Shown piece after piece: positions 9,517 through 57,718 of a stretch of 64,000 nucleotides of DNA (position 1 is the first letter of the stretch; every line of letters begins with the position of its first letter). The notes under the pieces were generated by a model. The model made no database searches. It had not been told where the DNA came from and saw nothing but the letters and a program-made list of their open reading frames with translations. The DNA comes from Trachythela sp. YZ-2020 (taxonomy: Eukaryota > Cnidaria > Anthozoa > Malacalcyonacea > Clavulariidae). The stretch is from positions 1,805,501 to 1,869,500 of the forward strand of contig JADLSH010000155.1 of NCBI GenBank assembly GCA_016169945.1. The letters are read 5' to 3'. The position numbers and the translations under genes are program-made.

Positions 9517-9530
9517 TAGTGAGGTCTATA
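9517..9530 (+). repeat. 14-bp inverted repeat flanking the minisatellite, left
   Basis: TAGTGAGGTCTATA here is exactly inverted at 21,697-21,710, directly at the right edge of the 12-kb array. The match stops at the 14th base on both sides. No flanking target duplication was found. Confidence 0.7.
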
Positions 9531-9568
9531 TTTAACAATTTTTGAATGAGATTGAATATGATGTGTAG

Positions 9569-9639
9569 AATTATCAAGGATGAAGTTTGTGTTATCAGCG
9601 AAACGAAGGCTGATAACACAAACAGACGTCTTGATAATT
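9569..9639. repeat. 71-nt hairpin at the left edge of the array
   Basis: Arms 9,569-9,599 and 9,609-9,639 pair perfectly over ten outer bases (aattatcaag) and 14 inner bases (tttgtgttatcagc), separated by a 7-nt mismatch, around a 9-nt loop gaaacgaag. It lies between the 14-bp inverted repeat and the first minisatellite unit. Confidence 0.75.
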
Positions 9640-9679
9640 GTTTAGCCTGTACCATGCGAAAACCTAATTCAATAGTTGC

Positions 9680-12600
9680 CTCTACTTCTTCCTCCATTCT
9701 TCTTCCACCTTTCTTCTTTTTCTTCCTCCATTGATTCTTCCACCTTTTCTTCTTCTTCTTCCTCCATTTATTCCACCTTTTTCTTCTTCTTCCAACTTTT
9801 CTTCTTCTTCCACCTTTTCTTCTTCTTCTTCCTCCATTTCTTCCACCTTTTTCTTCTTTTTCTTTCTCCATTCTTCTTCCACCTGTTCTTCTTCTTCTTC
9901 CTCCATTTCTTCTTCCACCTTTTCTTCTTCTTCTTCCATCTTTTCTTCCTCTTCTTCCTCCATTTCTTCTTCCACTTTTTCTTCTTCTTCTTCCTCCATT
10001 TCGTCTTCCACTTTTTCTTCTTTTTCTTCCTCCATTTCTTCTTCCAACTTTTCTTCTTCTTCCACCTTTTCTTCTTCTTCATCCTCCATTTCTTTCACCT
10101 TTTTCTTCTTTTTCTTTCTCCATTCTTCTTCCACCTCTTCTTCTTCTTCTTCCTCCATTTCTTCTTCCACCTTTTCTTCCTCTTCTTCCTCCATTTCTTC
10201 TTCCCCCTTTTCTACTTCATCTTCCTCCATTTCTTCTTCCACTTTTCTTCTTCTTCCACCTTTTCCTCTTCTTGGACCTTTTCTTCTTCTTCCACCTTTT
10301 CTTCTTCTTCTTCCTCCATTTTCTCTTCCACCTTTTTCTTCTTTTTCTTCCTCCATTTCCTCTTCCAACTTTTCTTCTTCTTCCACCTTTTCTTCTTTTT
10401 CTTCCTCCATTTCTTCTTCCACCTTTTCTTCTTCTTCTTCCTCCATTTATTCCACCTTTTTCTTCTTCTTCCAACTTTTCTTCTTCTTCCACCTTTTCTT
10501 CTTCTTCTTCCTCCATTTCGTCTTCCACCTTTTTCTTCTTTTTTTTCCTCCATTCTTATTCCACCTTTCTTCTTCTTCTTCCTCCATTTCTTCTTTCACC
10601 TTTTCTTCTTCTTCCACCTTTCTTCTTCTTGGACCTTTTCTTCTTTTTCCTCCATTTCTTCTTCCACTTTTTCTTCTTCTTCTTCCTCCATTTTCTCTTC
10701 CACCTTTTTCTTCTTTTTCTTCCTCCATTTCTTCTTCCAACTTTTCTTCTTCTTCCACCTTTCTTCTTCCTCTTCCTCCATTTCTTCTTCCACCTTTTCT
10801 TCTTCTTCTTCCTCCATTTCTTCTTCCACCTTTTCTTCTTTTTCTTCCTGCATATCTTCGTCCACCTTTCTTCTTTTTCTTCCTGCATTCTTCTTCTACC
10901 TTTTCTTCTTTTTCTTCCTCCATTTCTTCTTCCACCTGTTCTTCCTCTTCTTCCTCCATTTCTTCTTTCACCTTTTCTTCTTCTTCTTCCATCTTTGCTT
11001 CCTCTTCTTCCTCCATTTCTTCTTCCACTTTTTCTTCTTCTTCTTCCTCCATTTTCTCTTCCACTTTTTTCTTCTTTTTCTTCCTCCATTACTTCTTCCA
11101 ACTTTTCCTCTTCTTCCACCTTTCTTCTTCTTCTTCCTCCATTTCTTCTTCCACCTTTTCTTCTTCTTCTTCCTCCATTTCTTCTTCCACCTTTTCTTCT
11201 TTTTCTTCCTGCATATCTTCGTCCACCTTTCTTCTTTTTCTTCCTGCATTCTTCTTCTACCCTTTCTTCTTTTTCTTCCTCCATTTCTTCTTCCAACTTT
11301 TCTTCTTCTTCCACCATTTCTTCTTCTTCATCCTCCATTTCTTCCACCTTTTCTTCTTTTTCTTTCTCCATTTCTTCTTCCACTTTTTCTTCTTCTTCTT
11401 TCTCCATTTTGTCTTTCACCTATTCTTCTTCCTCCATTTCTTCTCCACCTTTTCTTCTTCTTCTTCCTCCATTTCTTCTTCCACCTTTTCTTCTTCTTCT
11501 TCTTCCTCCATTTCTTCTTCCACCTTTTCTTCTTCTTCATCCTCCATTTCTTTCACCTTTTTCTTCTTTTTCTTTCTCCATTCTTCTTCCACCTTTTCTT
11601 CTTTTTCTTCCTCCATTTCTTCTTCCACCTTTTCTTCCTCTTCTTCCTCCATTTCTTCTTCCCCCTTTTCTACTTCATCTTCCTCCATTTCTTCTTCCAC
11701 TTTTCTTCTTCTTCCACCTTTTCCTCTTCTTGGACCTTTTCTTCTTCTTCCACCTTTTCTTCTTCTTCTTCCTCCATTTTCTCTTCCACCTTTTTCTTCT
11801 TTTTCTTCCTCCATTTCCTCTTCCAACTTTTCTTCTTCTTCCACCTTTTCTTCTTTTTCTTCCTCCATTTCTTCTTCCACCTTTTCTTCCTCTTCTTCCT
11901 CCATTTCTTCTTCCACCTTTTCTTATTCTTCTTCCTCCACCAATTCTTCCACCTTTTCTGCTTCTTCTTCCTCCATTTATTCCACCTTTACTTCTTCTTC
12001 CAACTTTTTTTCTTCTTCCACCTTTTCTTCTTCTTCATCCTCCATTTCTTTCACCTTTTTCTTCTTTTTCTTTCTCCATTCTTCTTCCACCTGTTCTTCT
12101 TCTTCTTCCTCCATTTCTTCTTTCACCTTTTCTTCTTCTTCTTCCATCTTTTCTTCCTCTTCTTCCTCCATTTCTTCTTCCACTTTTCTTCTTCTTCCAC
12201 CTTTCTTCTTCTTGGACCTTTTCTTCTTTTTCCTCCATTTCTTCTTCCACTTTTTCTTCTTCTTCTTCCTCCATTTTCTCTTCCACTTTTTTCTTCTTTT
12301 TCTTCCTCCTTTTCTTCTTCCAACTTTTCTTCTTCTTCCACCTTTTCTTCTTCTTCATCCTCCATTTCTTTCACCTTTTTCTTCTTTTTCTTTCTCCATT
12401 CTTCTTCCACCTGTTCTTCTTCTTCTTCCTCCATTTCTTCTTTCACCTTTTCTTCTTCTTCTTCCATCTTTGCTTCCTCTTCTTCCTCCATTTCTTCTTC
12501 CACTTTTCTTCTTCTTCCACCTTTCTTCTTGTTGGACCGTTTCTTCTTCTTCCTCCATTTTCTCTTCCATCTTTTCTTCTTTTTCTTCCCCCAATTCTTC

Positions 12601-15600
12601 TTCCGACTTCTCTTCTTCTTCCACATTTCTTCTTCTTCTTCCTCCATTTCTTCTTCCACCTTTTCTTCTTCTTCTTCCTCCATTTCTTCTTCCACCTTTT
12701 CTTCTTTTTCTTCCTGCATATCTTCGTCCACCTTTCTTCTTTTTCTTCCTGCATTCTTCTTCTACCTTTTCTTCTTTTTCTTCCTCCATTTCTTCTTCCA
12801 CCTGTTCTTCTTCTTCTTCCTCCATTTCTTCTTTCACCTTTTCTTCTTCTTCTTCCATCTTTGCTTCCTCTTCTTCCTCCATTTCTTCTTCCACTTTTTC
12901 TTCTTCTTCTTCCTCCATTTTCTCTTCCACTTTTTTCTTCTTTTTCTTCCTCCATTACTTCTTCCAACTTTTCTTCTTCTTCCACCTTTCTTCTTCTTCT
13001 TCCTCCATTTCTTCTTCCACCTTTTCTTCTTCTTCTTCCTCCATTTCTTCTTCCACCTTTTCTTCTTTTTCTTCCTCCATTTCTTCTTCCACCTTTCTTC
13101 TTTTTCTTCCTGCATTCTTCTTCCACCTTTTCTTCTTTTTCTTCCTCCATTTCTTCTTCCAACTTTTCTTCTTCCACCATTTCTTCTTCTTCATCCTCCA
13201 TTTCTTCCACCTTTTCTTCTTTTTCTTTCTCCATTTCTTCTTCCACTTTTTCCTCTTCTTCTTTCTCCATTTTGTCTTTCACCTATTCTTCTTCCTCCAT
13301 TTCTTCTTCCACCTTTTCTTCTTCTTCTTCTTCCTCCATTTCTTCTTCCACCTTTTCTTCTTCTTCTTCTTCCTCCATTTCTTCTTCCACCTTTTCTTCT
13401 TCTTCTTCCTCCATTTCTTCTTCCACCTTTTCTTCTTCTTCTTCTTCTTCCTCCATTTCTTCTTCCACTTTTTCTTCTTCTTCTTCCTCCATTTTGCCTT
13501 CCACTTTTTTCTTCTTTTTCTTCCTCCATTTCTTCTTCCAACTTTTCTTCTCTTCTTCCACCTTTTCTTCTTCTTCTTCTTCCTGCATTCTTCTTCCACC
13601 CTTTCTTCTTTTTCTTCCTCCTTTTCTTCTTCCAACGTTTCTTCTTTTTCCACCTGTTCTTCTTCTTCATCCTCCATTTCTTCTTCCACCTGTTCTTCTT
13701 CTTCATCCTCCATTTCTTTTCTTCATTTTCTTTCTCCATTTCTTCTTCCACTTTTTCTTCTTCTTCTTTCTCCATTTTGTCTTCCACCTTTTCTTCTTCT
13801 TCTTCCTCCATTTCTTCTTCCACCTTTTCTTCTTCTTCATCCTCCATTTCTTTCACCTTTTTCTTCTTTTTCTTTCTCCATTCTTCTTCCACCTTTTCTT
13901 CTTCTTCATCCTCCATTTCTTTCACCTTTTTCTTCTTTTTCTTTCTCCATTCTTCTTCCACCTTTTCTTCTTTTTCTTCCTCCATTTCTTCTTCCACCTT
14001 TTCTTCCTCTTCTTCCTCCATTTCTTCTTCCCCCTTTTCTACTTCATCTTCCTCCATTTCTTCTTCCACTTTTCTTCTTCTTCCACCTTTTCTTCTTCTT
14101 CTTCTTCCTCCATTTCTTCTTCCACCTTTTCTGCTTCTTCTTCCTCCATTTCTTCTTCCTCCATTTCTTCTTCCAACTTTTCTACTTCTTCCACCTTTTC
14201 TTCTTCTTCATCCTCCATTTCTTCCACCTTTTTCTTCTTTTTCTTTCTCCATTCTTCTTCCACCTGTTCTTCTTCTTCCTCCATTTCTTCTTTCACCTTT
14301 TCTTCTTCTTCCACCTTTCTTCTTCTTGGACCTTTTCTTCTTTTTCCTCCATTTCTTCTTCCACTTTTTCTTCTTCTTCTTCCTCCTTTTCTTCTTCTTC
14401 TTCTTCCTCCATTTCTTCTTCCAACTTTTCTTCTTCTTCCACCTTTCTTCTTCTTCTTCCTCCATTTCTTCTTCCACCTTTTCTTCTTCTTCTTCCTCCA
14501 TTTCTTCTTCCACCTTTTCTTCTTTTTCTTCCTGCATATCTTCGTCCACCTTTCTTCTTTTTCTTCCTGCATTCTTCTTCTACCTTTTCTTCTTTTTCTT
14601 CCTCCATTTCTTCTTCCACCTGTTCTTCCTCTTCTTCCTCCATTTCTTCTTTCACCTTTTCTTCTTCTTCTTCCATCTTTGCTTCCTCTTCTTCCTCCAT
14701 TTCTTCTTCCACTTTTTCTTCTTCTTCTTCCTCCATTTTCTCTTCCATTTTTTCTTCTTTTTCTTCCTCCATTCTTCTTCCACCTTTTCTTCTTCTTCTT
14801 CTTCCTCCATTTCTTCTTCCACCTTTTCTTCTTCTTCTTCCTCCATTTCTTCTTCCTCCTTTTCTTCTTCTTCTTCCTCCATTTCTTCTTCCACCTTTCC
14901 TTCTTCCTCCATTCTTCTTCCGCCTTTTCTTTTTCTTCTTTTTCTTCCTCCATTCTTCTTCCGCCTTTTCTTTTTCTTCTTTTTCTTTCTCCATTCTTCT
15001 TCCACCTGTTCTTCTTCTTCTTCTTCCTCCATTTCTTCTTCCTCCTTTTCTTCTTCTTCTTCCTCCATTTCTTCTTCCACCTTTCCTTCTTCCTCCATTC
15101 TTCTTCCGCCTTTTCTTTTTCTTCTTCTTCTTCCTCCATTTCTTCTTCCACCTTTTCTACTTCATCTTCCTCCATTTCTTCTTCCTCCATTTCTTCTTCC
15201 TCCATTTCTTCTTCCTCCATTTCTTCTTCCACTTTTCCTCTTCTTCCACCTTTTCTTCTTCTTCTTCCTCCATTTCTTCTTCCTCCTTTTCTTCTTCTTC
15301 TTCCTCCATTTCTTCTTCCACCTTTCCTTCTTCCTCCATTCTTCTTCGCCTTTTCTTTTTCTTCTTCTTCTTCCTCCATTTCTTCTTCCACCTTTTCTTC
15401 CTCTTCTTCCTCCATTTCTTCTTCCCCCTTTTCTACTTCATCTCCCTCCATTTCTTCTTCCTCCATTTCTTCTTCCTCCATTTCTCCTTCCACTTTTCCT
15501 CTTCTTCCACCTTTTCTTCTTCTTCTTCCTCCATTTCTTCTTCCTCCTTTTCTTCTTCTTCTTCCTCCATTTCTTCTTCCAACTTTTCTTCTTCTTCATC

Positions 15601-18600
15601 CTCCATTTCTTCCACGTTTTCTTTTCTTCCTCCTCCATTTCTTCTTCCACCTTTCTCTTCTTCTTCCTCCATTTCTTCTTTCACCTTTTCTTCTTTTTCT
15701 TCCTCCATTTCTTCTTTCACCTTTTCTTCTTTTTCTTCCTTCATTTCTTCTTCCACCTTTTTCTTCTACTTCTTCCTCCATTCTTCTTCCACCTTTCTTC
15801 TTTTTCTTCCTCCATTTCTTCTTCCTCCTTTTCTTCTTCTTCTTCCTCCATTTCTTCTTCCAACTTTTCTTCTTCTTCATCCTCAATTTCTTCCACGTTT
15901 TCTTTTCTTCCTCCTCCATTTCTTCTTCCACCTTTCTTCTTCTTCTTCCTCCATTTCTTCTTCCACCTTTTCTTCTTCTTCTTCCTCCATTTCTTCTTTC
16001 ACCTTTTCTTCTTTTTCTTCCTTCATTTCTTCTTCCACCTTTTTCTTCTACTTCTTCCTCCATTCTTCTTCCACCTTGCTTCTTTTTCTTCCTCCATTTC
16101 TTCTTCCTCCTTTTCTTCTTCTTCTTCCTCCATTTCTTCTTCCAACTTTTCTTCTTCTTCATCCTCCATTTCTTCCACGTTTTCTTTTCTTCCTCCTCCA
16201 TTTCTTCTTCCACCTTTCTCTTCTTCTTCCTCCATTTCTTCTTTCACCTTTTCTTCTTTTTCTTCCTCCATTTCTTCTTTCACCTTTTCTTCTTTTTCTT
16301 CCTTCATTTCTTCTTCCACCTTTTTCTTCTACTTCTTCCTCCATTCTTCTTCCACCTTGCTTCTTTTTCTTCCTCCATTTCTTCTTCCACCTTTTCTTCT
16401 TCTTCTTCCAACTTTTCTTCTTCTTCATCCTCCATTTCTTCCACGTTTTCTTTTCTTCCTCCTCCATTCTTCTTCCACCTTTCTCATCTTCTTCCTCCAT
16501 TTCTTCTTTCACCTTTTCTTCTTCTTCTTCTTCCTCCATTTCTTCTTCCACTTTTTCTTCTTCTTCTTCCTCCATTTTGCCTTCCACTTTTTTCTTCTTT
16601 TTCTTCCTCCATTTCTTCTTCCAACTTTTCTTCTCTTCTTCCACCTTTTCTTCTTCTTCTTCTTCCTGCATTCTTCTTCCACCCTTTCTTCTTTTTCTTC
16701 CTCCTTTTCTTCTTCCAACGTTTCTTCTTTTTCCACCTGTTCTTCTTCTTCATCCTCCATTTCTTTTCTTCATTTTCTTTCTCCATTTCTTCTTCCACTT
16801 TTTCTTCTTCTTCTTTCTCCATTTTGTCTTCCACCTTTTCTTCTTCTTCTTCCTCCATTTCTTCTTCCACCTTTTCTTCCTCTTCTTCCTCCATTTCGTC
16901 TTCCACCTTTTCTTCTTTTTTTTCCTCCATTCTTCTTCCACCTTTTCTTCTTCTTCTTCCTCCATTTCTTCCACCTTTTCTTCTTTTTCTTCCTCCATTC
17001 TTCTTCCACCTTTTCTTCTTTTTCTTCCTCCATTTCTTCTTCCACCTTTTCTTCCTCTTCTTCCTCCATTTCGTCTTCCACCTTTTCTTCTTTTTTTTCC
17101 TCCATTCTTCTTCCACCTTTCTTCTTCTTGGACCTTTTCTTCTTCTTCCACCTTTTCTTCTTCTTCTTCCTCCATTTCTTCTTCCACCTTTTCTTCTTTT
17201 TCTTCCTCCATTTCCTCTTCCAACTTTTCTTCTTCTTCCACCTTTTCTTCTTTTTCTTCCTCCATTTCTTCTTCCACCTTTTCTTCTTCTTCATCCTCCA
17301 TTTCTTTCACCTTTTTCTTCTTTTTCTTTCTCCATTTTGTCTTCCACCTTTTCTTCTTCTTCTTCCTCCATTTCTTCTTCCACCTTTTCTTCTTCTTCAT
17401 CCTCCATTTCTTTCACCTTTTTCTTCTTTTTCTTTCTCCATTCTTCTTCCACCTTTTCTTCTTTTTCTTTCTCCATCTTCTTCCACCTTTTCTTCTTTTT
17501 CTTCCTCCATTTCTTCTTCCACCTTTTCTTCCTCTTCTTCCTCCATTTCTTCTTCCCCCTTTTCTACTTCATCTTCCACCTTTTCTTCTTCTTCTTCCTC
17601 CATTTCTTCTTCCACCTTTTCTTCTTTTTCTTCCTCCATTTCTTCTTCCAACTTTTCTTCTTCTTCCACCTTTTCTTCTTTTTCTTCCTCCATTTCTTCT
17701 TCCACCTTTTCTTCCTCTTCTTCCTCCATTTCTTCTTCCACCTTTTCTTCTTCTTCTTCCTCCATTGATTCTTCCACCTTTTCTTCTTCTTCTTCCTCCA
17801 TTTATTCCACCTTTTTTTTCTTCTTCCACCTTTTCTTCTTCTTCATCCTCCATTTCTCCCACCTCTTCTTCTTTTTCTTTCTCCATTTCTTCTTCCACCT
17901 GTTCTCCTTCTTCTTCCTCCATTTCTTCTTCCACCTTTCCTTCTTTTTCTTTTTCTTCCTCCATTTCTTCTTCCAACTTTTCTTCTTCTTCCACTTTTCT
18001 TCTTCTTCCACCTTTCTTCTTGTTGGACCTTTTCTTCTTTTTCCTCCATTTCTTCTTCCACTTTTTCTTCTTCTTCTTCCTCCATTTTCTCTTCCACTTT
18101 TTTCTTCTTTTTCTTCCTCCATTACTTCTTCCAACTTTTCTTCTTCTTCCATCTTTCTTCTTCTTCTTCCTCCATTTCTTCTTCCACCTTTTCTTCTTCT
18201 TCTTCCTCCATTTCTTCTTCCAACTTTTCTTCTTCTTCCACCTGTTCTTCTTCTTTTTCTTCCTCCATTTCTTCTTCCACCTTTTCTTCCTCTTCTTCCT
18301 CCATTTCTTCTTCCCCCTTTTCTACTTCATCTCCCTCCATTTCTTCTTCCTCCATTTCTTCTTCCTCCATTTCTCCTTCCACTTTTCCTCTTCTTCCACC
18401 TTTTCTTCTTCTTCTTCCTCATTTCTTCTTCCTCCTTTTCTTCTTCTTCTTCCTCCATTTCTTCTTCCACCTTTCCTTCTTCCTCCATTCTTCTTCCGCC
18501 TTTTCTTTTTCTTCTTTTTCTTCCTCCATTCTTCTTCCGCCTTTTCTTTTTCTTCTTTTTCTTTCTCCATTCTTCTTCCACCTGTTCTTCTTCTTCTTCT

Positions 18601-21600
18601 TCCTCCATTTCTCCTTCCACCTTTTCTTCCTCTTCTTCCTCCATTTCTTCTTCCACCTTTTCTTCCTCTTCTTCCTCCATTTCTTCTTCCCCCTTTTCTA
18701 CTTCATCTTCCTCCATTTCTTCTTCCTCCATTTCTTCTTCCTCCATTTCTTCTTCCACTTTTCCTCTTCTTCCACCTTTTCTTCTTCTTCTTCCTCCATT
18801 TCTTCTTCCTCCTCTTCCTCCATTTCTTCTTCCAACTTTTCTTCTTCTTCATCCTCAATTTCTTCCACGTTTTCTTTTCTTCCTCCTCCATTTCTTCTTC
18901 CACCTTTCTTCTTCTTCCTCCATTTCTTCTTTCACCTTTTCTTCTTTTTCTTCCTCCATTCTTCTTCCACCTTTTCTTCTTCTTCTTCCTCCATTTCTTC
19001 TTCCACCTTTTTCTTCTTCTTCTTCCATCTTTGCTTCTTCTTCTTCCTCCATTTCTTCTTCCACTTTTCTTCTTCTTCCAACTTTTCTTCTTCTTCCACC
19101 TTTTCTTCTTCTTCTTCCTCCATTTCGTCTTCCACCTTTTTCTTCTTTTTTTTCCTCCATTCTTATTCCACCTTTCTTCTTCTTCTTCCTCCTTTTCTTC
19201 TTCCAAGTTTTCTTCTCTTCCACCTTTTCTTTTTATTTTTCCTCCATTTCTTCTTCCACCTTTTTCTTCTTTTTCTTTCTCCATTCTTCTTCCACCTGTT
19301 CTTCTTCTTCTTCCTCCATTTCTTCTTTCACCTTTTCTTCTTCTTCTTCCATCTTTTCTTCCTCTTCTTCCTCCATTTCTTCTTCCACTTTTCTTCTTCT
19401 TCCACCTTTCTTCTTCTTCTTCCTCCATTCTTCTTCCACCTCTTCTTCTTTTTCTTCCTCCATTTCTTCTTACGACTTCTCTTCTTCTTCCACCTTTTTT
19501 CTTCTTCTTCCTCCATTTCTTCTTCACCTTTTCTTCTTCTTCTTCCTCCATTCTTCTTCCACTTTTTCTTCTTCTTCTTCCTCCATTTCTTCTTCCACCT
19601 TTCTTCTTCTTCTTCCTCCATTCTTCTTCCACCTTTTCTTCTTTTTCTTCCTCCATTTCTTCTTCCACCTTTTCTTCTTCTTCTTCCTCCATTTCTTCTT
19701 TCACCTTTTCTTCTTCTTCTTCCATCTTTTCTTCCTCTTCTTCCTCCATTTCTTCTTCCACTTTTCTTCTTCTTCCACCTTTCTTCTTCTTGGACCTTTT
19801 CTTCTTTTTCCTCCATTTCTTCTTCCACTTTTTCTTCTTCTTCTTCCTCCATTTTCTCTTCCACTTTTTTCTTCTTTTTCTTCCTCCTTTTCTTCTTCCA
19901 ACTTTTCTTCTTCTTCCACCTTTCTTCTTCTTCTTCTTCCTCCATTTCTTCCACCTTTTTCTTCTTTTTCTTTCTCCATTCTTCTTCCACCTGTTCTTCT
20001 TCTTCTTCCTCCATTTCTTTTCTTTTCTTCTTCTTCTTCTCCCATCTTTTCTTCCTCTTCTTCCTCCATTTCTTCTTCCACTTTTCTTCTTCTTCCACCT
20101 TCTTTCTCTTGGACCTTTTCTTCTTCTTCCTCCATTTCGTCTTCCACCTTTTTCTTCTTTTTCTTCCTCCATTCTTCTTCAACTTTTCTTCTTCTTCCAC
20201 CTTTCTTCTTCTTCTTCCTCCATTTCTTCTTCCACCTTTTCTTCTTCTTCTTCCTCCATTTCTTCTTCCACCTTTTCTTCTTCTTCTTCCTCCATTTCTT
20301 CTTCCACCTTTTCTTCTTCTTCTTCCTCCATTCTTCTTCCACCTTTTCTTCTTTTTCTTCCTCCATTTCTTCTTCCACCTTTTCTTCTTCTTCTTCCTCC
20401 ATTTCTTCTTCCACCTTTTCTTCTTCTTCTTCCACCTTTTCTTCTTCTTCTTCCTCCATTTCTTCTTCCACCTTTTCTTCTTCTTCTTCCTCCATTTCGT
20501 CTTCCACCTTTTCTTCTTTTTCTTCCTCCATTTCTTCTTCCAACTTTTCTTCTTCTTCCACCTTTTCTTCTTCTTTCTTCCTCCATTTCTTCTTCCACCT
20601 TTTCTTCTTCTTCTTCCTCCATTTCTTCTTCCACCTTTCCTTCTTTTTCTTCCTCCATTTCTTCTTCCACTTTTCTTCTTCCTCTTCCTCCATTCTTCTT
20701 CCACCTTTTCTTCCTTTTCTTCCTCCTTTTCTTCTTCCAACTTTCTTCTCTTCCACCTTTTCTTTTTCTTTTTCCTCCATTTCTTCCACCTTTTCTTCCT
20801 CTTCTTCCTCCATTTCGTCTTCCACTTTTTCTTCTTCTTCTTTCTCCATTTTGTCTATCACCTATTCTTCTTCCTCCATTTCTTCTTCCACCTTTTCTTC
20901 TTCTTCTTCCTCCATTTCTTCTTCCACCTTTTCTTCTTCTTCTTCTTCTTCCTCCATTTCTTCTTCCACCTTTTCTTCTTCTTCTTCCTCCATTTCTTCT
21001 TCCACCTTTTCTTCTTCTTCTTCCTCCATTTCTTCTTCCACTTTCTTCTTCTTCTTCCTCCATTTCTTCTTCCACCTTTTTCTTATTTTTCTTCCTCCAT
21101 TCTTATTACAACTATCTTCTTCTTCCACCTTTTCTTCTTCTTCTTCCTCCTTTTCTTCTTCTTCCTTTTCTTTTTCTTCTTCCTTTTCTTCTTCTTCCTT
21201 TTCTTCTTCTTCTTCCACCTTTTCTTCTTCTTCATCCTCCATTTCTTCTTCCACCTTTTCTTCTTCTTCATCCTTTTCTTCTTCCACCTTTTTCTTCTTT
21301 TTCTTTCTCCATTTCTTCTTCCACCTTTTCTTCCTCTTCTTCCTCCATTTCTTCTTCCACCTTTTCTTCTTCTTCTTCCTCCATTTCTTCTTCCACCTTT
21401 CTTCTTCTTCATCCTCCATTTCTCCCACCTCTTCTTTTTCTTTCTCCATTCTTCTTCCACCTGTTCTTCTTCTTCTTCCTCCATTTCTTCTTTCACCTTT
21501 TTCTTCTTTTTCTTCCTCCATTCTTCTTCCACCTTTTCTTTTTCTTTTTCCTCCATTTCTTCTTCCACCTTTTCTTCCTCTTCTTCCTCCATTTCGTCTT

Positions 21601-21696
21601 CCACCTTTCCTTCTTTTTTTCCCTCCATTCTTCTTCCACCTTTTCTTCTTTTTCTTCCTCCTTTTCTTCTTCCAAGTTTTCTTCTTCTTCTTCCTT
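9680..21696 (-). repeat. 12-kb polypyrimidine/polypurine minisatellite, about 36-bp unit
   Basis: The plus strand is almost only C and T, with A confined to ccatttc and ccacc. The core unit is about 36 bp. On the minus strand it reads as 12 codons of the type EKVEEEMEEEEE, and other frames give R/K/W-rich or S/F/L/P-rich repeats. About 330 units are implied. Marker variants recur in blocks: catatcttcgtcc at about 10,852, 11,213, 12,718 and 14,536; cttcttggacc at about ten places; ccccttttctacttcatc at about seven places. Higher-order duplication has therefore shaped the array. Open frames of up to about 4,050 codons on the plus strand follow from the lack of TA and TG dinucleotides and are not evidence of a gene. 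Such tracts can form triplex or slipped DNA and stall replication (known for the sequence class, inference here). Confidence 0.95.
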
Positions 21697-21710
21697 TATA
21701 GACCTCACTA
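21697..21710 (-). repeat. 14-bp inverted repeat flanking the minisatellite, right
   Basis: Exact inverse of 9,517-9,530. It lies within one base of the last polypyrimidine unit. Confidence 0.7.
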
Positions 21711-23420: not shown

Positions 23421-24126
23421 TTCGTGTGACTTCTATTGGGATTTTTGAGGGAAGTGTACGACGACTTTTGAAGTAATACACCCCTCGCATAAAATGCTTT
23501 CTGTTAGGTTTAAACTTTTTAAAATACAATTTTTCCATTCCAATGAATGAAATTGATTTAAAGGCAATGCCTACTTATAATTTGTTTTATATTGTACGTT
23601 TAAATTATTGAAATGAGTGAGTTCACAGCAGGGGCTTTTTATCTTGTGGCTGAATAGCCTATGTCATAGACCATACTCGATTTCGAGTATGGTCTGTGAC
23701 GTAGCCTAGGGATTGAATCGCGTGCTCGATTTCGAGCCCGATATGGTGCTGAATTTGTGAATATGGTGCATAGATATCCAAATGGTCTTCGAAGGCGATG
23801 TACAATACTCGATGTATTCTAAAAAACAGGACAAATATGTGTAGAGCTGTAAAGTACCACATTGAGCCTTATCGACCAAAATGACCATTGATTAATTCAC
23901 TTCATTTTAGTGAATTGTGGCATTGTACTGATTTTGTTGGGTGCAAGACAATGTCATCGCATAAACAGGACATGTTTAAAAATACAGATTACTTGAGAGC
24001 AAGAAATTTGCAGACATTCCTACTCTCCCGATTTGATCTGCTATGCACGTTGCCTTTTGTCAGCATTAAAGCACTAAGAGAAAAGAAGCTGAAGGAATCA
24101 CCCTTTTAAAACAAAAATTAACGATA
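23421..24126. other. Unassigned intergenic DNA
   Basis: Short frames on both strands (23,659-24,109) without recognisable domains. A small palindrome is present near 23,667-23,697 (catactcgatttcgagtatg). Confidence 0.3.
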
Positions 24127-24129
24127 CTA

Positions 24130-24381
24130 CAATCCTTTTCAAATGTGTTGGGACAGATGTCCCAAATACCTATTATATTGATAAACGTCGATCCCCCCGC
24201 CCCCTATTCAATGTTGTGTCCAAAATATTATCATATTTGACGGGGCATGGTCTTACAATTGGGAAACCAACATTGATTGGGGAGGGGGGGGAGGGGAGGG
24301 AGACCAATGTGTATTACAAGTGTACAGATTGACCTATGCTCTAAAACTGCAGGTGTCCCAACAACTTTTGAAAGTGATTGT
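24130..24381. repeat. 252-bp terminal module, copy 1
   Basis: Its own ends are imperfect inverted repeats of about 27 bp: acaatccttttcaaatgtg then ttgggaca on the left, and the inverse of acaatcactttcaaaag then ttgttgggaca on the right. Next to the left end is ttgggacagatgtcccaa, a palindrome. The module also has a G/A-rich block (ggggagggggggg) and reads like a MITE. Confidence 0.7.
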
Positions 24382-26519
24382 CTGAAAGGCGTCTATAGCG
24401 TCCTTTAGTCAAAGAGTATTTTTCAAAGTTATTTTCATGAAATTCAAATAGCATTTAGCGTAACATATTTAGCGAATTGCATTGGCATATAATATCTCGT
24501 TTCCTATGCGTTCTTTGGTCAATATATTTTAAATATAACGCGATAGAATAGTATATTATACAATATGGAGTTATAAAATGCGATGTATTGGGAGGGGAGT
24601 GATTCAAGAGATATATTATTGAAACTGGCCTATGCAAGCGTGATATGCAAATTTATCTGAAAAATTAGCGACGTCGATTATTGTTGAGTAAAATGCACGG
24701 GAAAATTGATGGACATTGCGTATGAGCCGTGCATATTTGACGACTGATTGTACAATGTGTCTGTGTTATAACTTTATAGCGTCTGTCGTTGTTTTGCTAC
24801 ACTGTATACTAACATGGTCTTTGACGAAAGATATATCTGACGAAACGCAGGCACATGTTACCTTCTTAAGTATGGGAACAAGTATTATATTCGCAAACTT
24901 GCTAAAATGCCTAGGAATCCCATCGGGAATTTTCCCACAGACTAAAATAGCAACTATGAATAGTCCATCAAGCAATTGCTAATAAGAAATATATCAAGCT
25001 AAGAAACGTGGCTGGAGTGTAAAGGACAATCGCGTAAATCTATACTCCAAATACCAGTAGAAGATATTTTTATTTATTATGATCATTTACTATGTATGCC
25101 GAGGCGCACTGAGGCTGTGATTAAATACAGATCTATTATTTAGGACGTGAAACATGTATGTAATATAAGACGCTTGAAACACGTGTTCGGTTGACACACG
25201 GTTGACACTGTAAATCGTAGCACATTTTCCTCAATTTAGCTTTGAGTTGATACGGCATATTCAATTTTTCCACAGTAACTACTTAAAGAAAGTGTTTAGG
25301 GAGCCTGTGTTGATATATTACTGGTTGTTCTTTCCCAAAAAGTACGTAAAATTGTGTGAAGTGTATCGATTGACGCTCAACTCTAAAAATCACTACAGTA
25401 TATCAGATATATTTATATAAAAAGTGTCAACCGCTCCAAATTTTGGCTTAATCACATTTAAACTCTTTAATGACTAGCAAACACATTGTTAGATATTCTC
25501 AACATATTATTCTCAGCCTTGTTCTGTTTTAAAAGCATTTCAGTGGCTCGTTATTTCATTTTATATAGTGTCAACCGACGTGTCAACCGATGCTGCTTTG
25601 ATGGCAATCGTCTATTCCGGAAAAGCTTATTAGGATAACTTGCGCATACAATTAACATTGGTTTGACCCAAGAGCGGAGGTAGAATTGTTGATAATAAGT
25701 TTAGAAAAACATGAATTACATGCTCTTACTTCTTTCTGTTGATTTTCTAGGATTCGAATAAATTGTACATAAAATATATCCGAAAGGCCCCCAGCTGACT
25801 TGCATCACCATGGTGATGACCATATCAGTTGAACCACCCGTGGCGCGTTGTTTGGTGCCCAAAGGAATGTATAATGGTTGCCTACAATCCTATTTACTAT
25901 CCACGAACTTTCTGATAACTTGCAACAAAAACGTAGTGCTTGAAGTTATAGCTATGTCCAAGTGACCACCTCTTTTAGTAGGTACCTCCAAATTTACTAC
26001 CATCTGAGTGATCCTTCATGGGCTTTACGAGAGCCATGGGGAGACAATTCTATCTGAGAATTCTGCTCTAGATAGATGTACACTATCACATTAACTACTC
26101 GTGTTCAACTAAGCGCTTGCTTGGTTTGAGTACCCAATTTAGCAATTGGCCGATCCATTGCTCGTATACGAATAATAACCGGAAGTCTATTGCTATGCGA
26201 TAAACTATCCCTAAATGTAAGATAATGAAACCAAAATAGTCTGGTTTAACTACCACACCACATTAAATAATTCAATAGTTTTGGGCGTAATTGATAAAAG
26301 CTAAAAACACAATAAACCTTAGGGAACTAAAGATGCTATACCCAAACGCCCATATATTCTGTTAATTATTAACTTTTCCAATTTCACACGAACTAGAGTG
26401 GCTAGAAATGTTGTATTACATCTGCTATGCACAATATAGAAATAAATACATCGCCCTTAAAGCATTCTTTGCCAGTTATTTTGAAATATACAATAAAAAT
26501 TTGGGGTATAGTGTTCAGA
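24382..26519. repeat. Internal region of tandem unit, copy 1
   Basis: Non-coding as far as can be seen; the longest frames (60-104 codons) match nothing. It has five copies of GTGTCAACCG or its inverse within 400 bp (25,188, 25,199, 25,424, 25,568, 25,580). It also has a 16-bp palindrome catcaccatggtgatg near 25,804. Confidence 0.65.
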
Positions 26520-26771
26520 CAATCCTTTTCAAATGTGTTGGGACAAATGTCCCAAATACCTATTATATTGACAAACGTCGATCCCCCCGCCCCCTATTCA
26601 ATGTTGTGTCCAAAATATTATCATATTTGACGGGGCATGGTCTTACAATTGGGAAACCAACATTGATTGGGGAGGGGGGGGAGGGGAGGGAGACCAATGT
26701 GTATTACAAGTGTACAGATTGACCTATGCTCTAAAACTGCAGGTGTCCCAACAACTTTTGAAAGTGATTGT
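26520..26771. repeat. 252-bp terminal module, copy 2 (shared by both units)
   Basis: Flanked by ttcagacaatc on the left and its exact inverse gattgtctgaa on the right, so the inverted repeat here extends five bases beyond the module into different sequence from that at the outer ends of the block. Confidence 0.7.
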
Positions 26772-28905
26772 CTGAAAGGCGTCTATAGCGTCCTTTAGTC
26801 AAAGAGTATTTTTCAAAGTTATTTTCATGAAATTCAAATAGCATTTAGCGTAACATATTTAGCGAATTGCATTGGCATATAATATCTCGTTTCCTATGCG
26901 TTCTTTGGTCAATATATTTTAAATATAACGCGATAGAATAGTATATTATACAATATGGAGTTATAAAATGCGATGTATTGGGAGGGGAGTGATTCAAGAG
27001 ATATATTATTGAAACTGGCCTATGCAAGCGTGATATGCAAATTTATCTGAAAAATTAGCGACGTCGATTATTGTTGAGTAAAATGCACGGGAAAATTGAT
27101 GGACATTGCGTATGAGCCGTGCATATTTGACGACTGATTGTACAATGTGTCTGTGTTATAACTTTATAGCGTCTGTCGTTGTTTTGCTACACTGTATACT
27201 AACATGGTCTTTGACGAAAGATATATCTGACGAAACGCAGGCACATGTTACCTTCTTAAGTATGGGAACAAGTATTATATTCGCAAACTTGCTAAAATGC
27301 CTAGGAATCCCATCGGGAATTTTCCCACAGACTAAAATAGCAACTATGAATAGTCCATCAAGCAATTGCTAATAAGAAATATATCAAGAAACGTGGCTGG
27401 AGTGTAAAGGACAATCGCGTAAATCTATACTCCAAATACCAGTAGAAGATATTTTTATTTATTATGATCATTTACTATGTATGCCGAGGCGCACTGAGGC
27501 TGTGATTAAATACAGATCTATTATTTAGGACGTGAAACATGTATGTAATATAAGACGCTTGAAACACGTGTTCGGTTGACACACGGTTGACACTGTAAAT
27601 CGTAGCACATTTTCCTCAATTTAGCTTTGAGTTGATACGGCATATTCAATTTTTCCACAGTAACTACTTAAAGAAAGTGTTTAGGGAGCCTGTGTTGATA
27701 TATTACTGGTTGTTCTTTCCCAAAAAGTACGTAAAATTGTGTGAAGTGTATCGATTGACGCTCAACTCTAAAAATCACTACAGTATATCAGATATATTTA
27801 TATAAAAAGTGTCAACCGCTCCAAATTTTGGCTTAATCACATTTAAACTCTTTAATGACTAGCAAACACATTGTTAGATATTCTCAACATATTATTCTCA
27901 GCCTTGTTCTGTTTTAAAAGCATTTCAGTGGCTCGTTATTTCATTTTTATATAGTGTCAACCGACGTGTCAACCGATGCTACTTTGATGGCAATCGTCTA
28001 TTCCGGAAAAGCTTATTAGGATAACTTGCGCATACAATTAACATTGGTTTGACCCAAGAGCGGAGGTAGAATTGTTGATAATAAGTTTAGAAAAACATGA
28101 ATTACATGCTCTTACTTCTTTCTGTTGATTTTCTAGGATTCGAATAAATTGTACATAAAATATATCCGAAAGGCCCCCAGCTGACTTGCATCACCATGGT
28201 GATGACCATATCAGTTGAACCACCCGTGGCGCGTTGTTTGGTGCCCAAAGGAATGTATAATGGTTGCCTACAATCCTATTTACTATCCACGAACTTTCTG
28301 ATAACTTGCAACAAAAACGTAGTGCTTGAAGTTATAGCTATGTCCAAGTGACCACCTCTTTTAGTAGGTACCTCCAAATTTACTACCATCTGAGTGATCC
28401 TTCATGGGCTTTACGAGAGCCATGGGGAGACAATTCTATCTGAGAATTCTGCTCTAGATAGATGTACACTATCACATTAACTACTCGTGTTCAACTAAGC
28501 GCTTGCTTGGTTTGAGTACCCAATTTAGCAATTGGCCGATCCATTGCTCGTATACGAATAATAACCGGAAGTCTATTGCTATGCGATAAACTATCCCTAA
28601 ATGTAAGATAATGAAACCAAAATAGTCTGGTTTAACTACCACACCACATTAAATAATTCAATAGTTTTGGGCGTAATTGATAAAAGCTAAAAACACAATA
28701 AACCTTAGGGAACTAAAGATGCTATACCCAAACGCCCATATATTCTGTTAATTATTAACTTTTCCAATTTCACACGAACTAGAGTGGCTAGAAATGTTGT
28801 ATTACATCTGCTATGCACAATATAGAAATAAATACATCGCCCTTAAAGCATTCTTTGCCAGTTATTTTGAAATATACAATAAAAATTTGGGGTATAGTGT
28901 TCAGA
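26772..28905. repeat. Internal region of tandem unit, copy 2
   Basis: Near-identical to 24,382-26,519, including the GTGTCAACCG motifs. The few differences suggest a recent duplication. Confidence 0.75.
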
Positions 28906-29157
28906 CAATCCTTTTCAAATGTGTTGGGACAAATGTCCCAAATACCTATTATATTGACAAACGTCGATCCCCCCGCCCCCTATTCAATGTTGTGTCCAAA
29001 ATATTATCATATTTGACGGGGCATGGTCTTACAATTGGGAAACCAACATTGATTGGGGAGGGGGGGGAGGGGAGGGAGACCAATGTGTATTACAAGTGTA
29101 CAGATTGACCTATGCTCTAAAACTGCAGGTGTCCCAACAACTTTTGAAAGTGATTGT
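28906..29157. repeat. 252-bp terminal module, copy 3
   Basis: Similarity to the unit stops exactly after gattgt. The next bases agtttaaaag are new flank. There is therefore no third internal region. Confidence 0.75.
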
Positions 29158-37004: not shown

Positions 37005-38068
37005 TCAACTGTTGAATAATCGTTGCTTTATATTAATTGAATGTGATTCCTTGGTACGCACCTTTGCAACTCTTACTTCTCCATCTTTCCAAGTAACTAA
37101 CTCTTCAATAACACCCAACGACCACTTTCCTCGCTTCTTCTCATCATCCGCAATGATTATAACATCTCCAATTCTCGGTGTAGGTGCACTTTTGCTCTTC
37201 TTTGTACGATGTCTCTCGCGCAGACTCCTAAAATATTCTCTGGACCATCTTTTGCATACTGCTTCTTTGCACTTCAAAAGATGTTTGGCACGTCTTCGCA
37301 AATCGCCTTCCTCGATATGACGATGTTCTAGCTCAGGTAGAATGTTGCTATTTGCGAACAGTAGGGAGTTGGAAGTCAACACTGGAAATTGCAAGTCATC
37401 CTCAACATAGCTCAAAGGGCGGTTGTTTAGTGTTACCTCGACATCTAGGAGAACTTCCTCCAACTCTTTCCATTTCAACATACCCTTTCCAATGCATTTT
37501 CTAAGAGCAGATTTCACCAACCCTACCATGCGTTCAAATTGTCCACCCCACCAAGGGGCACGACTGAGAATAAATTGCCATAGAATCTGTTTCTTGCCTA
37601 AATAGTCCTGAAACCTTTCGTCATTTCCCACCAATCGGATCCACTTTGCTGCAGTGACGAACGTCCCACCGTTGTCAGAATATATTCTCTCGGGCCTTCC
37701 CCTCCGTACTATAAACCGTTTCAGGCTCAACAAGAATTCAGTTGTCGTCGGGTTGGGTAGAAGATCAATCATTATCCCTCTTGTTAAAATACAGGCATAA
37801 AGGAGAATATGCGCCTTTCCTTCTCGGTTCTTAGCTGTTCGATATTGTAAGGGTCCAGCAAAATCCACGCCGATTATTTGATAAGCATTCTTTCCTTGTG
37901 TGCGCGTAGTGGGTAATATGCAGTAGCTGTCAATCTCTTGCATCCGTAACAACGTTTCCTAACTTTCTTAACGAGCCGCCTCAGTCGGGGAATCCAATAA
38001 CGTGTTCGAACGTGTGCCATTGTTAAGCCGACTCCACCATGTAATGTAAGTTGATGTGCTTCTTCCAC
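37005..38068 (-). pseudogene. BEL/Pao integrase and C-terminal domain
   Basis: The core is one open frame of 315 codons (37,952-37,005). It has VDFAGP with the first Asp, IYSDNGGTF with the second, and WWGGQFERMVGLVKSALRK with the Glu. A C-terminal module then ends in GDVIIIADDEKKRGKWSLG, typical of the DUF5641 tail of Pao integrases. The N-terminal zinc-binding part (HLTLHGG-like HQLTLHGGVGLT, CYGCKR) is in a different frame at 38,068-37,874, so one frameshift separates them near 37,930. Confidence 0.85.
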
Positions 38069-38282
38069 GATTCTTTGTGCAATTAGATGGTCATCATGGA
38101 TGCAGATTGGATACTCACCTTGCGTGCGGCCACGGCATTCTAACAGCCTATCTTTGTCCGGCTGTTAGTTCAAAGTTACGCGATCAATCTCAAGGTCGCA
38201 AGTTTTCTGAGCTCTCTGAACGTAGAACTGACGCTATCGGTCAATTTCTCTGGTGGTCAACGGTCCAACCATGCAAGATCCT

Positions 38283-39260
38283 CTAACGTCCTCGAACGGC
38301 ATTATTCGCAAATCTACGCATCCAGGCACACACGCGAAGAGCTTTCTGCAATGGAAACTTCTCCAACACATCATCAGCTTCATTACCATCGTTGACTGCA
38401 ACAGCGAAAACACTTTTCACCAGTTTGGCTTCAGCATTACGTTCGATAGAGGGTTGAGGCACGATGTCTTCTGGCCAACATTTCGGGTTTCTAAGACATT
38501 TCGGTCCACGCCACCACAACTCTGCATCACTCAAGCCACCTGCTCTACTCGCACGATCCACCGGGGTTTTGTTAGTTGGTACATGTCTCCAAATGATATC
38601 TTGGTGGTCATTGATCTTCTTAACACGATTCGCTACAAATTGTCTGTAATCGCCATTTCCCTTGATCCAGTGCAGGACCACGGAGCTGCAGACCAACAGT
38701 GACTAGTTTCGACAGGCAATCCATTCAACGCTTCTCTCACATTCACAACAAGGTTGCTGGCCAGATATGCTGCTACCAACTCCAACCGAGGCATAGTTCG
38801 TTCTCGCTTAGGTAGTCTAGCTCTTGCTGCCGCCAAGCCTTGGTTTGTGCCTGATGCTTGCTCGACAACTGCGTACACACAAGCTGCTACCCCATTTTTA
38901 CTGGCGTCTCCAAACGAGTGTAGCTTGATGCTTTCAATCGGCTCTCTATGGGCTGCTAACGATCTTGGAACTTCGACATGAGCCGGAAGAACATTCTCCC
39001 ACCGATTCCACTCTTCGCTCAGATTATCAGGCATTGGTTCATCCGAAGCTCGTTTTGTATCACATGTGGTCCGGTATATCAGCTTCCCACGCAACGATAA
39101 TGGCGAAACAAACCCCAATGGATCATGTGCTTTAGCAAGTTTAGCTAAAACACGTCGTTTGGTTTTCACCGTCTCTTCCGTTGGGAGAGTTACATATATC
39201 GTATCGGATTATTTTGACCATTCAAGACCGAGTAGTTTGCAGCCTCTCCTGTCGGAAGCC
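38283..39260 (-). pseudogene. BEL/Pao connection and RNase H region
   Basis: Two frames overlap. 39,169-38,633 has AHDPLGFVSPLSLRGK, LHSFGDASKNGVAACVYA and MPRLELVAAYLA. 38,696-38,283 has VLHWIKGNGDYRQFVANRV, IIWRHVPTNKTPVDRASRAG and ELWWRGP. They correspond to the Pao RNase H domain, broken by a frameshift near 38,660. Further upstream the sequence to about 39,260 is in yet another frame. Confidence 0.8.
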
Positions 39261-39286
39261 CCCAACTGATGTTTTGCATAGGTTGA

Positions 39287-40190
39287 TTATTCTTCAGCCA
39301 GGTAATCAGAGTCCAATTCAATCTCATTTGAGTGCCATTTATGAAGGTTAAAGCAACCTTCTTTGAACATTTCTGTTACTTTCTCTTTGAACTCACGAAC
39401 TTCTGCTACTGTTGTAGATCCGGAGATCAAGTCGTCAACGTACAGTTCCTCTCGAAGTTTAGCTACAATGTCCGGTTCTTGATCCTCCCAGGTGCTCAGC
39501 TGCATGTCAAGAACTCCCCCTAGCAAGAATGGGGAGGGAGCTAGACCAAAGGGCACTCTAGAAAATCTCAATATTTCAATCTCAGACTGTCCATTTTTTT
39601 TCCAATGGAAGCGGAGCGAGAGCATCACAATCTAGTTCTCGATACCGTACTCGAATTTGCAAAAATGCTTTCTGCAAATCACCGTTTAGTGCTACCGAAT
39701 GAAAACGTCCTCTCACCAATACGTTCCAAAGCTTATTTGTCAGACTGGAGACAATTCTAAGTTTGGTTGATTCTGAGTCAGTTCGCACAACTGGCTTATG
39801 GGGGATGTAGAACTCTCTACCCTCACTGGTATTAGTTGCACTTTCGATGATCCCTTCTGCCCGTTGCTCCTGAAGAATCTGGTCATACGTAGGTCTCAGT
39901 CCCTCACGATCAAGTCTACTGGTTAAAGTTTCTAGTCGACGTAAGCTGCCAGCTCGGTTGTTCGGCAATGGGGAGTGGTTTCCACGCCATGGTAGCCCAG
40001 TCCCATATCATCCGGTTTGGTCTCGGGTGAGTTGCTCCTTGAACTCGTCGTAAACAACATTCTGACCGTTGTTTGATCGATCTTCCAAACCCAAGACATC
40101 AAGCCTACATAGTTTTTCATATTCAGCTGGAGACGTCTGAGCTACAAGCATGCTTGACACATCCACCGATTCCTTGCCTGGGGACATCAT
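39287..40190 (-). pseudogene. BEL/Pao reverse transcriptase
   Basis: Frames 39,968-39,582 and 39,628-39,287 together hold NNRAGSLRRLETLTSRL, GREFYIPHKPVVR, ALNGDLQKAFLQI (first catalytic Asp), RVPFGLAPSPFLLGG and ELYVDDLISG (catalytic YVDD). Between KLRIV and the LWNVLV motif the usual YDAS segment is missing, a deletion of perhaps 25-30 residues. The linker from the protease (SVDVSSM, VLGLEDRS, YDEFKEQLTR) is in another frame at 40,190-40,008. Confidence 0.82.
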
Positions 40191-50867: not shown

Positions 50868-51225
50868 ATACTGTAATAGTTCACTGGTGATGTTAATATT
50901 GAGATCAGTGTAAGAATTGAGGCAGTTTTGTCACTGAACTAATACTATTATATCTTCTAATCTATAATAATTTTATTACTTTACAATAAAACATAATAAA
51001 ATAGAAACAACTGGGGGCAAGCAAGCGAATTGGGTCTGTTCCCCAATTTTATTATTGGGAACTATATGCCCCCATCATTTCTAATTGTTAACCATTACCA
51101 TGATGACTGTTTTTGAAACAACTATATAAAAATGTTAACAGGAATTTTGCATCATTTTTTGTTTTCAATTTGGATAAATATCATCTTTTTATACTATCTT
51201 AACAGTATTTATAAACATTTACAGG

Positions 51226-52458
51226 TTTCCATTAAAGAATTCTGAGGTGCTAGCAAAATGGGAAAATTATTTTAAAAAATATGATCGTCAAGGAAAGAAA
51301 TGGAGAGCCAGTCAGTTTAGCCACATTTGCAGCAAACATTTTTTAGAGACTGATTTCACAACTGTATATCAGCAACAACACAACACAAGTAAACGGCTAA
51401 AATTTAACGCCATTCCCTCAGTTTTCCACGAATCTCAATCTGCAGTTGAATATCGTGTAAATCAACAGCAAACTTTCCAAGGGACAACAATATCCAACAG
51501 CATTATAATAACACCATTCCCAGCAGATGCAACCACAACACATCCCAAGCAAGATCTCACTTTGCTAGCAAATACTCTTCTTGATGGTTCCTCGGATTTA
51601 CTCCATTCTCAACATCTCACTGATCCAATCCATGATGCAACCAACGATGTTATCATATCTGAGATTGTTGAATCCACACCATTCCCAGCAGATGCAACCA
51701 CAACACATCCCAAGCAAGATCTCACTTTCCTAGTAAATACTCTTCTTGATGGTTCCTCAGATTTACTCCATTCTCAACATCTCATTGATCCAATCCATGA
51801 TGCAACCAACGATGTTACCATATCTGAGACTGTTGAATCCACACCATTCCCAGCTTCACAATTTCCAATCACAGCTATGGCAAGATCATCTGAGGACGAA
51901 GGTTTAGCAGTTATATCTACCGGTAGTGTCAATTTTCCTGTTGTACCCAGTAAAAAGGCAAAATTCAGTTGTGAAGATCTTATAACAGATGTTCTGGTTG
52001 AGAAAGATGAAGAAATTGCAAAGAGAGATAAGAAAATTAAATTGTTGCATCAGAAGTTGCGTAGAAAAGAAACTTCAGTTAGCAAGATGAAACATATTAT
52101 TTGCACGAAGAAGAAGTCACCCGTTAATCAGTCTGAAGAGGAACAACTACACCAAAGATTTGATGGTTTGAAGAGATCAATATTGAAGAACATGGTCCAA
52201 AACTCAAAAGGGGCATCAAGAAGCAGACGATACAACAATGCCATGAAAGAATTTGCACTGACATTGAGCTATTACTCCCCAAAATCGTACGCATATGTCC
52301 GATCAATCATGCTACTCCCACACCCATCTTTGATCCGAAAATGGGCAAGCAATGTGAATTGTGAACCAGGTTTTATTGAGGAGTCATTTCGAATTTTGGA
52401 GGGAGAAGCGAAGTTGAATGCAGAAAAGAAGATTGTTGCTTGGTATTGGATGCAATGA
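51226..52458 (+). pseudogene. THAP9/P-element-like transposase, N-terminal part
   Basis: A splice-acceptor-like tttacag precedes FPLKNSEVLAKWENYFKKY, the second half of a THAP zinc finger. HICSKHF follows (its C..H ligands), then the closing AIPSVF. The first Cys pair must lie in an upstream exon that I could not find. Residues about 90-205 contain a 55-residue tandem repeat starting TPFPADATTTHPKQ. A coiled-coil stretch follows (VEKDEEIAKRDKKIKLLHQK), then the first transposase region ending YSPKSYAYVRSI. The frame breaks near 52,438, where one base is missing; the next frame continues. Confidence 0.8.
51511..51855 (+). repeat. 165-bp in-frame tandem repeat inside the THAP transposase
   Basis: acaccattcccagc starts at 51,511, 51,676 and 51,841, giving two full copies and a stub. 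The period is 55 codons, so the duplication kept the frame. The copies differ at a handful of codons. Confidence 0.85.
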
Positions 52459-53189
52459 CCATACGTAAGCAAGTCCAATGGGAGACAGCAAACAATAAAT
52501 ATAGTGGTTTTGTCGATTATGGCCCATTAGAAGCACCCGAAATCATTGCATCCGAAGCTCTTGTGTTCTTATTAGTAGGATTAAGAAGCCATTGGAAGCA
52601 ACCGATCGGGTACTTCTTAACGGATAAAGCCTCTGCAACTGTCCAGGCAGCATTAATCAGCATGGCATTGGCAAAGGCAAGTGCTGCTGGTCTGAAAGTG
52701 TGGTATGTCACATCAGATGCGACTACAACCAACATCAGTACGTTTAAGAAACTTGGATGTAGTTTTGGTGGCACCTACGATTCCATCGTGACAAAGTTCC
52801 AACATCCTGTTACCGGTGAAGATGTGTTCGTCATCTTAGATGCCTGCCATATGCTGAAATTGGCGAGAAATGCCCTGGCATTTCTTGGCACAATCTGCTC
52901 AAGTGATGGTGATCAAATACAATGGAAATTTCTCGACACTCTTCATTTGGTCCAAGAGCAAGAAGGTCTGAAGCTTGGTAATAAGTTGTCTGACAACCAT
53001 GTGCAGTTCGAAAAGCACAAAATGAATGTGAGTTTGGCAGCCCAAACACTCAGTGGCTCAGTGGCAGATGCAATTGATTTCATGAACATTGTTCAGAAAC
53101 AGCCCGAGTTCCAAAGCAGTGAAGCCACAGTTACATTCATCAGAATCATCGACAGATTTTTTGATTTGCTGAATTCAAGAAATCCCCAT
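52440..53189 (+). pseudogene. P-element-like transposase, catalytic core
   Basis: Continues the previous frame after a 1-bp deletion. RNase H-like core: the first Asp is in LVLDAMTIRK (bases from about 52,436), followed by WYVTSDATTTNISTFKKLG and FVILDACHMLKLARN, matching the D...D...D of THAP9 and P-element transposases. The protein runs to FDLLNSRNPH, where the LINE begins. The catalytic Glu region is found again at 55,444 on the far side of the LINE. Confidence 0.82.
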
Positions 53190-53386
53190 ATTATTATTAT
53201 TATTATTATTTCTGAATATTTATACAGGATTAAAAAACTTCAGTCATTTACACAATATTTACAGCAAAATACAATGCAAGAACTGCTATCCACGTTTGTC
53301 CTGTAAAACCTCCGTCTCTAATAATAAACAACTATTAAAAACTATGAAATATTAGTAATAATGTAAGATAATGAATTTTAAAAATG

Positions 53387-54031: not shown

Positions 54032-54059
54032 TGCTTCTGTTTTGCCCTTTTAAGGTTTA

Positions 54060-55245: not shown

Positions 55246-55265
55246 CTGAAATTATCAGACATGAG

Positions 55266-57594: not shown

Positions 57595-57718
57595 ATTGCC
57601 GTTCCCAGAATTTGGTAAAATATTTTCTATAATGGAGAGAACTCAAACGGTGCGAGTCTGCACCGTTTGAGTTCTCGTCATTATAGAAAATATTTTACCA
57701 AATTCTGGGAACGGCAAT
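57595..57718. repeat. 124-nt near-perfect palindrome
   Basis: Arms 57,595-57,634 and 57,679-57,718 pair over 40 bases and arms 57,637-57,653 and 57,660-57,676 over 17. Only a 2-nt mismatch separates them, and the loop is 6 nt. The outer arm sequence (attgccgttcccagaat) is the inner end of the 350-bp TIR, so the palindrome starts where the TIR stops. Confidence 0.85.

Follow-up and report, generated by a model that had tools for sequence, protein, structure and literature searches.

Within the window, by which we mean the whole stretch of 64,000 nucleotides analysed from Trachythela sp. YZ-2020, positions 9681-21696 are occupied by a minisatellite array whose variant units recur in long block copies. 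We consider it probable that this is an old, non-coding minisatellite, perhaps derived from TTC/GAA, which has been remodelled by out-of-register recombination, perhaps more so at its left end. Directly visible in the sequence are the array itself, block copies that share one orientation, the lags between them and a difference between left and right; the block-copying model is read from this one assembled haplotype. No function beyond instability is indicated for the array.

TRF reports a single array at 9681-21695 with a period of 36, 337.4 copies, 76% matches and 9% indels, and wraparound alignment yields 342 units, of which 141 measure exactly 36 bp, with 196 different sequences among them. 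The original prediction of about 330 units of a roughly 36-bp repeat is therefore borne out. From TRF, wraparound alignment and composition, we describe 9681-21696 as a minisatellite array of ~340 units with a modal length of 36 bp and the consensus TCTTCTTCTTCCTCCATTTCTTCTTCCACCTTTTCT; with this period, its head-to-tail units fall within the range of roughly 9-100 bp by which minisatellites are defined. The boundaries of the array are sharp. Its 12,016 bases comprise 6725 T, 4434 C, 757 A and 100 G, making the + strand 92.9% pyrimidine (87-99% in 100-bp windows). The description of this strand as almost purely pyrimidine is thus close to the figure, although slightly strong in its wording, as A interrupts the tract mostly every 12 or 24 bp. 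The longest pure-pyrimidine run is 89 bp and the second longest 47 bp. GC content is ~38%, with a GC skew of -0.92 to -0.97 in the kilobases lying entirely within the array.

At the level of single units, pure TTC aligned in its best-fitting phase mismatches the consensus at 8 of 36 positions, and the longest TTC run in the array is ~21 bp. Substitutions against the consensus amount to 462 transitions and 374 transversions; with transversions this common, we saw no sign of selection for pyrimidine purity. Among 538 indel events against the consensus, 516 are not multiples of 3, a count that the aligner may inflate. Odd-length unit variants are found in identical form at several sites (for example, one 34-bp unit seven times and one 35-bp unit five times), which argues that many indels are inherited marks and not random read errors. 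We also considered the array as the interior of a terminal-inverted-repeat element and rejected this, the longest exact inverted match between its flanks (9517-9530 and 21697-21710) being 14 bp with E = 0.15, probably a product of chance. The exact 36-mer unit gave 0 matches in prokaryote contigs and a 35-mer of the unit 0 matches in viral contigs, collections not meant for animal genomes and hence saying little. Among the literature matches listed, no title was recognised as this array and none concerned cnidarian polypurine minisatellites.

Several lines of evidence point to the copying of multi-unit blocks. First, the marker CATATCTTCGTCC occurs four times, at 10851, 11212, 12717 and 14535, exactly at the spacings of 361, 1505 and 1818 that had been put forward as a sign of block duplication. 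Second, the longest exact repeat in the array is 293 bp, compared to at most 143 bp in 300 shuffles of the unit order, and exact repeats of at least 100 bp hold 7,766 bases, compared to at most 660 in 300 such shuffles. Third, self-alignment yields 87 block pairs of at least 150 bp at no less than 95% identity, where 30 shuffles give a mean of 13.3 and a maximum of 41. These pairs cover 9,595 of the 12,016 bases (at most 2,686 in 30 shuffles), and the longest reaches 635 bp (266 bp in 30 shuffles). The shuffle control depends on units cut by our own alignment; as the block pairs were selected for high identity, the low gap count between copies was dropped as an argument. No minus-strand self-matches within the array were printed in self-BLAST, and the block copies share one orientation. 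Their lags extend from 71 bp to ~10.5 kb, with a median of 3,049, where pairs of positions drawn at random would give 3,519. Lastly, adjacent units differ by a mean of 7.48 edits, against 7.6-8.6 at the other lags sampled; neighbours are thus scarcely more alike than distant units, which implies that slippage between neighbours has not been the main shaper of the array. Together, the excess of copies over unit-order shuffles and the weak resemblance of neighbours support the claim of repeated block duplication rather than slippage. The accompanying term 'higher-order structure' is apt for a mosaic of block copies, but not for a single repeating period: a classical higher-order repeat consists of one multi-monomer block in register, whereas the block lags here have no dominant value, and the array shows scattered copies and tandem blocks that are local, with periods of about 281, 320 and 361 bp.

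Individual block copies found by self-BLAST, all on the + strand, illustrate this mosaic. The block at 10674-11308 is copied to 12541-13174 (635 bp aligned, 97.6% identity, lag 1867), and part of this second copy is found again at 14392-14798, a further copy (409 bp aligned) that matches 10708-11116 at 98.5% and 12574-12982 at 97.6%. A shorter block at 10054-10448 is copied to 11512-11906 (395 bp, 99.2%). Local higher-order tandems include 15500-16409, with ~3.2 copies of 281-282 bp at 98-99% (lags 282 and 563), which gives rise to the second-longest block pair (630 bp, 98.1%, lag 282), and a 320-bp tandem block at 11992-12560 (98.0%), within which 12057-12356 is copied also to 19634-19933 (98.7%, lag 7577). 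The right-most 0.75 kb on the same strand (20949-21696), judged from the block list and the coverage per kb, is devoid of block copies that reach both 150 bp and 95% identity. A 361-bp tandem is present within both copies of the 635-bp block, and this shared position suggests that the tandem duplication preceded the long-range copy. On closer inspection the order is not clean, as the pairwise identities (97.3% and 94.9% for the tandem pairs, 96.7% and 98.0% for the cross pairs) do not settle which of tandem and long-range copying came first.

We postulate that the array perhaps grew from a TTC/GAA-rich triplet repeat, a descent suggested by the closeness of its consensus to TTC, and that it would then have aged until any two units differed by ~8 edits. 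Out-of-register recombination between its copies would later have remodelled it; candidate routes are gene conversion through synthesis-dependent strand annealing and unequal exchange, whether between sister chromatids or between alleles. Blocks of up to ~635 bp would in this way have been spread over the array, and at the left such copying would have been more frequent or more recent. It is improbable that mis-joining of long reads during assembly instead produced the array or the blocks within it: a tandem copy of 99.7% identity lies nearby (24129-29157) and could be an uncollapsed haplotype, but the block copies differ by scattered substitutions and stand at many lags of up to ~10.5 kb, the flanking sequence differs between the two sides of the array, and the window is without N.

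Exact repeats are unevenly distributed along the array. Taken per base, the longest exact repeat averages 167 for the left half and 114 for the right, a difference of 53 compared to 5.1 (sd 1.7, maximum 10.2) in 200 shuffles of units within 30-unit bins, which preserve local unit make-up. Excluding the 281-bp tandem together with the right-most 0.75 kb leaves the contrast in place (left 164, right 111). By halves, the 87 block pairs, which are not independent of each other, divide into 30 left-left, 39 left-right and 18 right-right. At the loosest cut-off the deepest kilobase lies on the right (19681-20680, mean depth 5.29), and the left-right trend is broad, extending over ~7 kb. Rearrangement may have been most active at the left end, although the deep kilobase on the right and the interdependence of the pairs tell against such a polarity; in one assembled haplotype, the difference could also stem from few recent events.

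In the left flank, the segment 9569-9639, which ends 41 bp short of the array, is an inverted repeat with 31-nt arms, 81% complementary, and a 9-nt loop (repeat search and DNA fold). The DNA fold of 9540-9680, which spans it, has z = -6.83, and the element may be a cruciform or a small foldback element. At polar human minisatellites, initiation in the flank underlies polarity. By analogy, a cruciform at 9569-9639 might start breaks beside the left edge and so cause the putative polarity here, in keeping with its strong fold, its proximity and the longer exact repeats on its side of the array. We regard this as unlikely, since the link is a correlation at one locus, the trend is not steep beside the inverted repeat, and a second inverted repeat lies to the right of the array at 23655-23708. 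Slightly less likely still is the fuller picture, in which an early-branching animal carries a polar minisatellite, strand-asymmetric and low in GC, that rearranges itself by long block conversion (up to ~635 bp) over 12 kb, initiated at the left inverted repeat. If true, it would mean that minisatellite polarity exists outside vertebrates and that GC-rich units are not needed for it.

The array had also been proposed to keep very long frames open and, if read from the right, to yield Glu/Lys-rich repeat peptides. Long frames are indeed open on the + strand, where two frames across the array have no stop and the third has 2, but this is uninformative: order-1 Markov sequences of the same make-up have a mean of 3.6 stops per + frame and up to 4,005 open codons. 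Composition thus leads one to expect long open frames wherever an array is built of pyrimidines, and they give no evidence of coding. The specific alternative, that the array is or recently was an exon which, read from the right in EKVEEEMEEEEE units, encodes a repeat protein rich in Glu and Lys, draws on the 36-bp unit corresponding to 12 codons, on spacings of the minus-strand ATG anchor CTCCAT that are multiples of 3 in 154 of 273 cases, and on 32-40 minus-strand stops per frame against a Markov mean of 153, a deficit that a triplet-based repeat would also produce. One frame should then be kept across the units, whereas the 274 CTCCAT sites are spread over the three frames as 93/99/82, a spread that largely refutes the exon. 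The indels not divisible by 3 (516 of 538, with the same caveat on the aligner) also count against it, as does a longest minus-strand opening of 518 aa. A protein search with one minus-strand reading (~253 aa, low-complexity) scored 7,979 candidates, those with most shared words; none of them reached E<=0.001, which is weak evidence. The predicted peptides are thus unsupported, we reject coding on either strand on phase spread, frame-breaking indels and (weakly) the lack of a protein match, and we hold an exon to be extremely improbable.

A further alternative is that the purine/pyrimidine asymmetry itself drives the instability, with H-DNA, an R-loop or a two-layer G-quadruplex stalling forks and starting the breaks that lead to block copying. 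High GC skew would favour R-loops should transcription enter the array from the right, and the skew inside the array is strong. The minus strand has 175 two-layer G4-like motifs, counted without overlap, compared to a Markov mean of 117. In addition, a statistical association between polypurine/polypyrimidine tracts and recombination hot spots is reported for yeast and human (PMC1543642). Other features tell against this alternative. Pure-pyrimidine mirror repeats (arms of at least 10, loop of at most 8) number 19, at ~10 places, where 20 Markov runs give a mean of 39, so that the excess characteristic of H-DNA is absent; TTC runs are short, as given above. A mouse S1-seq study reports signal enriched at mirror repeats, whereas pyrimidine repeats lacking mirror symmetry gave little or none (PMC9171763). 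Three-layer G4 motifs on the minus strand of the array number 0 (Markov mean 2.9), G runs of 3 or more only 17, and the balance of 462 transitions to 374 transversions gives no sign of pyrimidine purity being maintained. The expectation that a tract this long should form triplexes was accordingly overstated, the array being neither one pure tract nor rich in mirror repeats. We find it doubtful, though the least so of the alternatives, that asymmetry drives the copying; the length and strand bias of the array are notable, and nothing here shows them causing it.

The remainder of the window contains mobile-element remains. In Pfam, 8 of the 20 reading frames scanned have a match at E<=0.001, and the DUF7660 match of one scanned frame is below the Pfam cut-off. 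Remains of a BEL/Pao-type retrotransposon lie on the minus strand at 37005-39631, with Pao peptidase and DUF5641 above the Pfam cut-offs and the integrase core and reverse transcriptase below them. A P-element-like transposase gene at 51178-55962, with THAP, HTH, RNase H and GTP-binding insertion domains (Pfam), is interrupted by a nested insertion, a reverse transcriptase frame on the opposite strand; its THAP-containing frame includes an in-frame tandem duplication at 51511-51854 (165 bp or 55 codons, 96%, 2.1 copies by TRF). Relatives of the P-element-like frame include one from Paramuricea clavata at 56% (P0010) and others at up to 81% among the best 120 of 313, and those of a LINE-type frame include one from Hydractinia symbiolongicarpus at 46% (P0161) and others at 85-91% among the best 120 of 2,912; the relatives that bear a species name point to Cnidaria. 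The stretch at 24129-29157 consists of ~2.1 tandem copies of a ~2.39-kb unit, 99.7% identical over 2,644 aligned bases; either the duplication is very recent or a haplotype was left uncollapsed. Self-reverse-complement stretches of more than 120 bp occur at 572-715 (83.6%) and 57595-57718 (94.4%). The window contained no tRNA by ARAGORN with the bacterial code and no Rfam family at gathering cut-offs.

Compared to known systems, the array shares with GAA/TTC repeats and the PKD1 pyrimidine tract a long one-strand pyrimidine bias on a triplet basis, but differs from them in its regular A interruptions, its TTC runs of no more than ~21 bp and its 36-bp unit. Like satellite DNA with higher-order repeats, it has diverged monomers within near-identical multi-unit blocks; unlike such DNA, it lacks a dominant higher-order period and is a single 12-kb array in the window. 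The closest likeness is to the human minisatellites MS32, MS205, CEB1 and MSY1, which also have tandem units of 9-100 bp, variants in blocks and rearrangement beyond slippage, and for whose complex events synthesis-dependent strand annealing has been proposed (PMC2599865). The same report calls the autosomal ones GC-rich, whereas the array here has ~38% GC and a strong strand bias; the MSY1 allele studied there has 77 repeats, compared to ~340 units here, and its conversions are small and of single units, compared to the long blocks seen in our one haplotype (PMC2599865). A directional duplication bias is reported at MSY1 and MS205 in another paper (PMC2897807), although polarity was not significant among the MSY1 sperm mutants of the former (PMC2599865). 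The array is therefore of an ordinary repeat kind, though long and rich in traces of block copying. It changes no view of minisatellites, for which rearrangement beyond slippage and directional bias have already been described at human loci, but, as its own variants record its history of block copying, it is a natural case well suited to tests of tandem-repeat remodelling.
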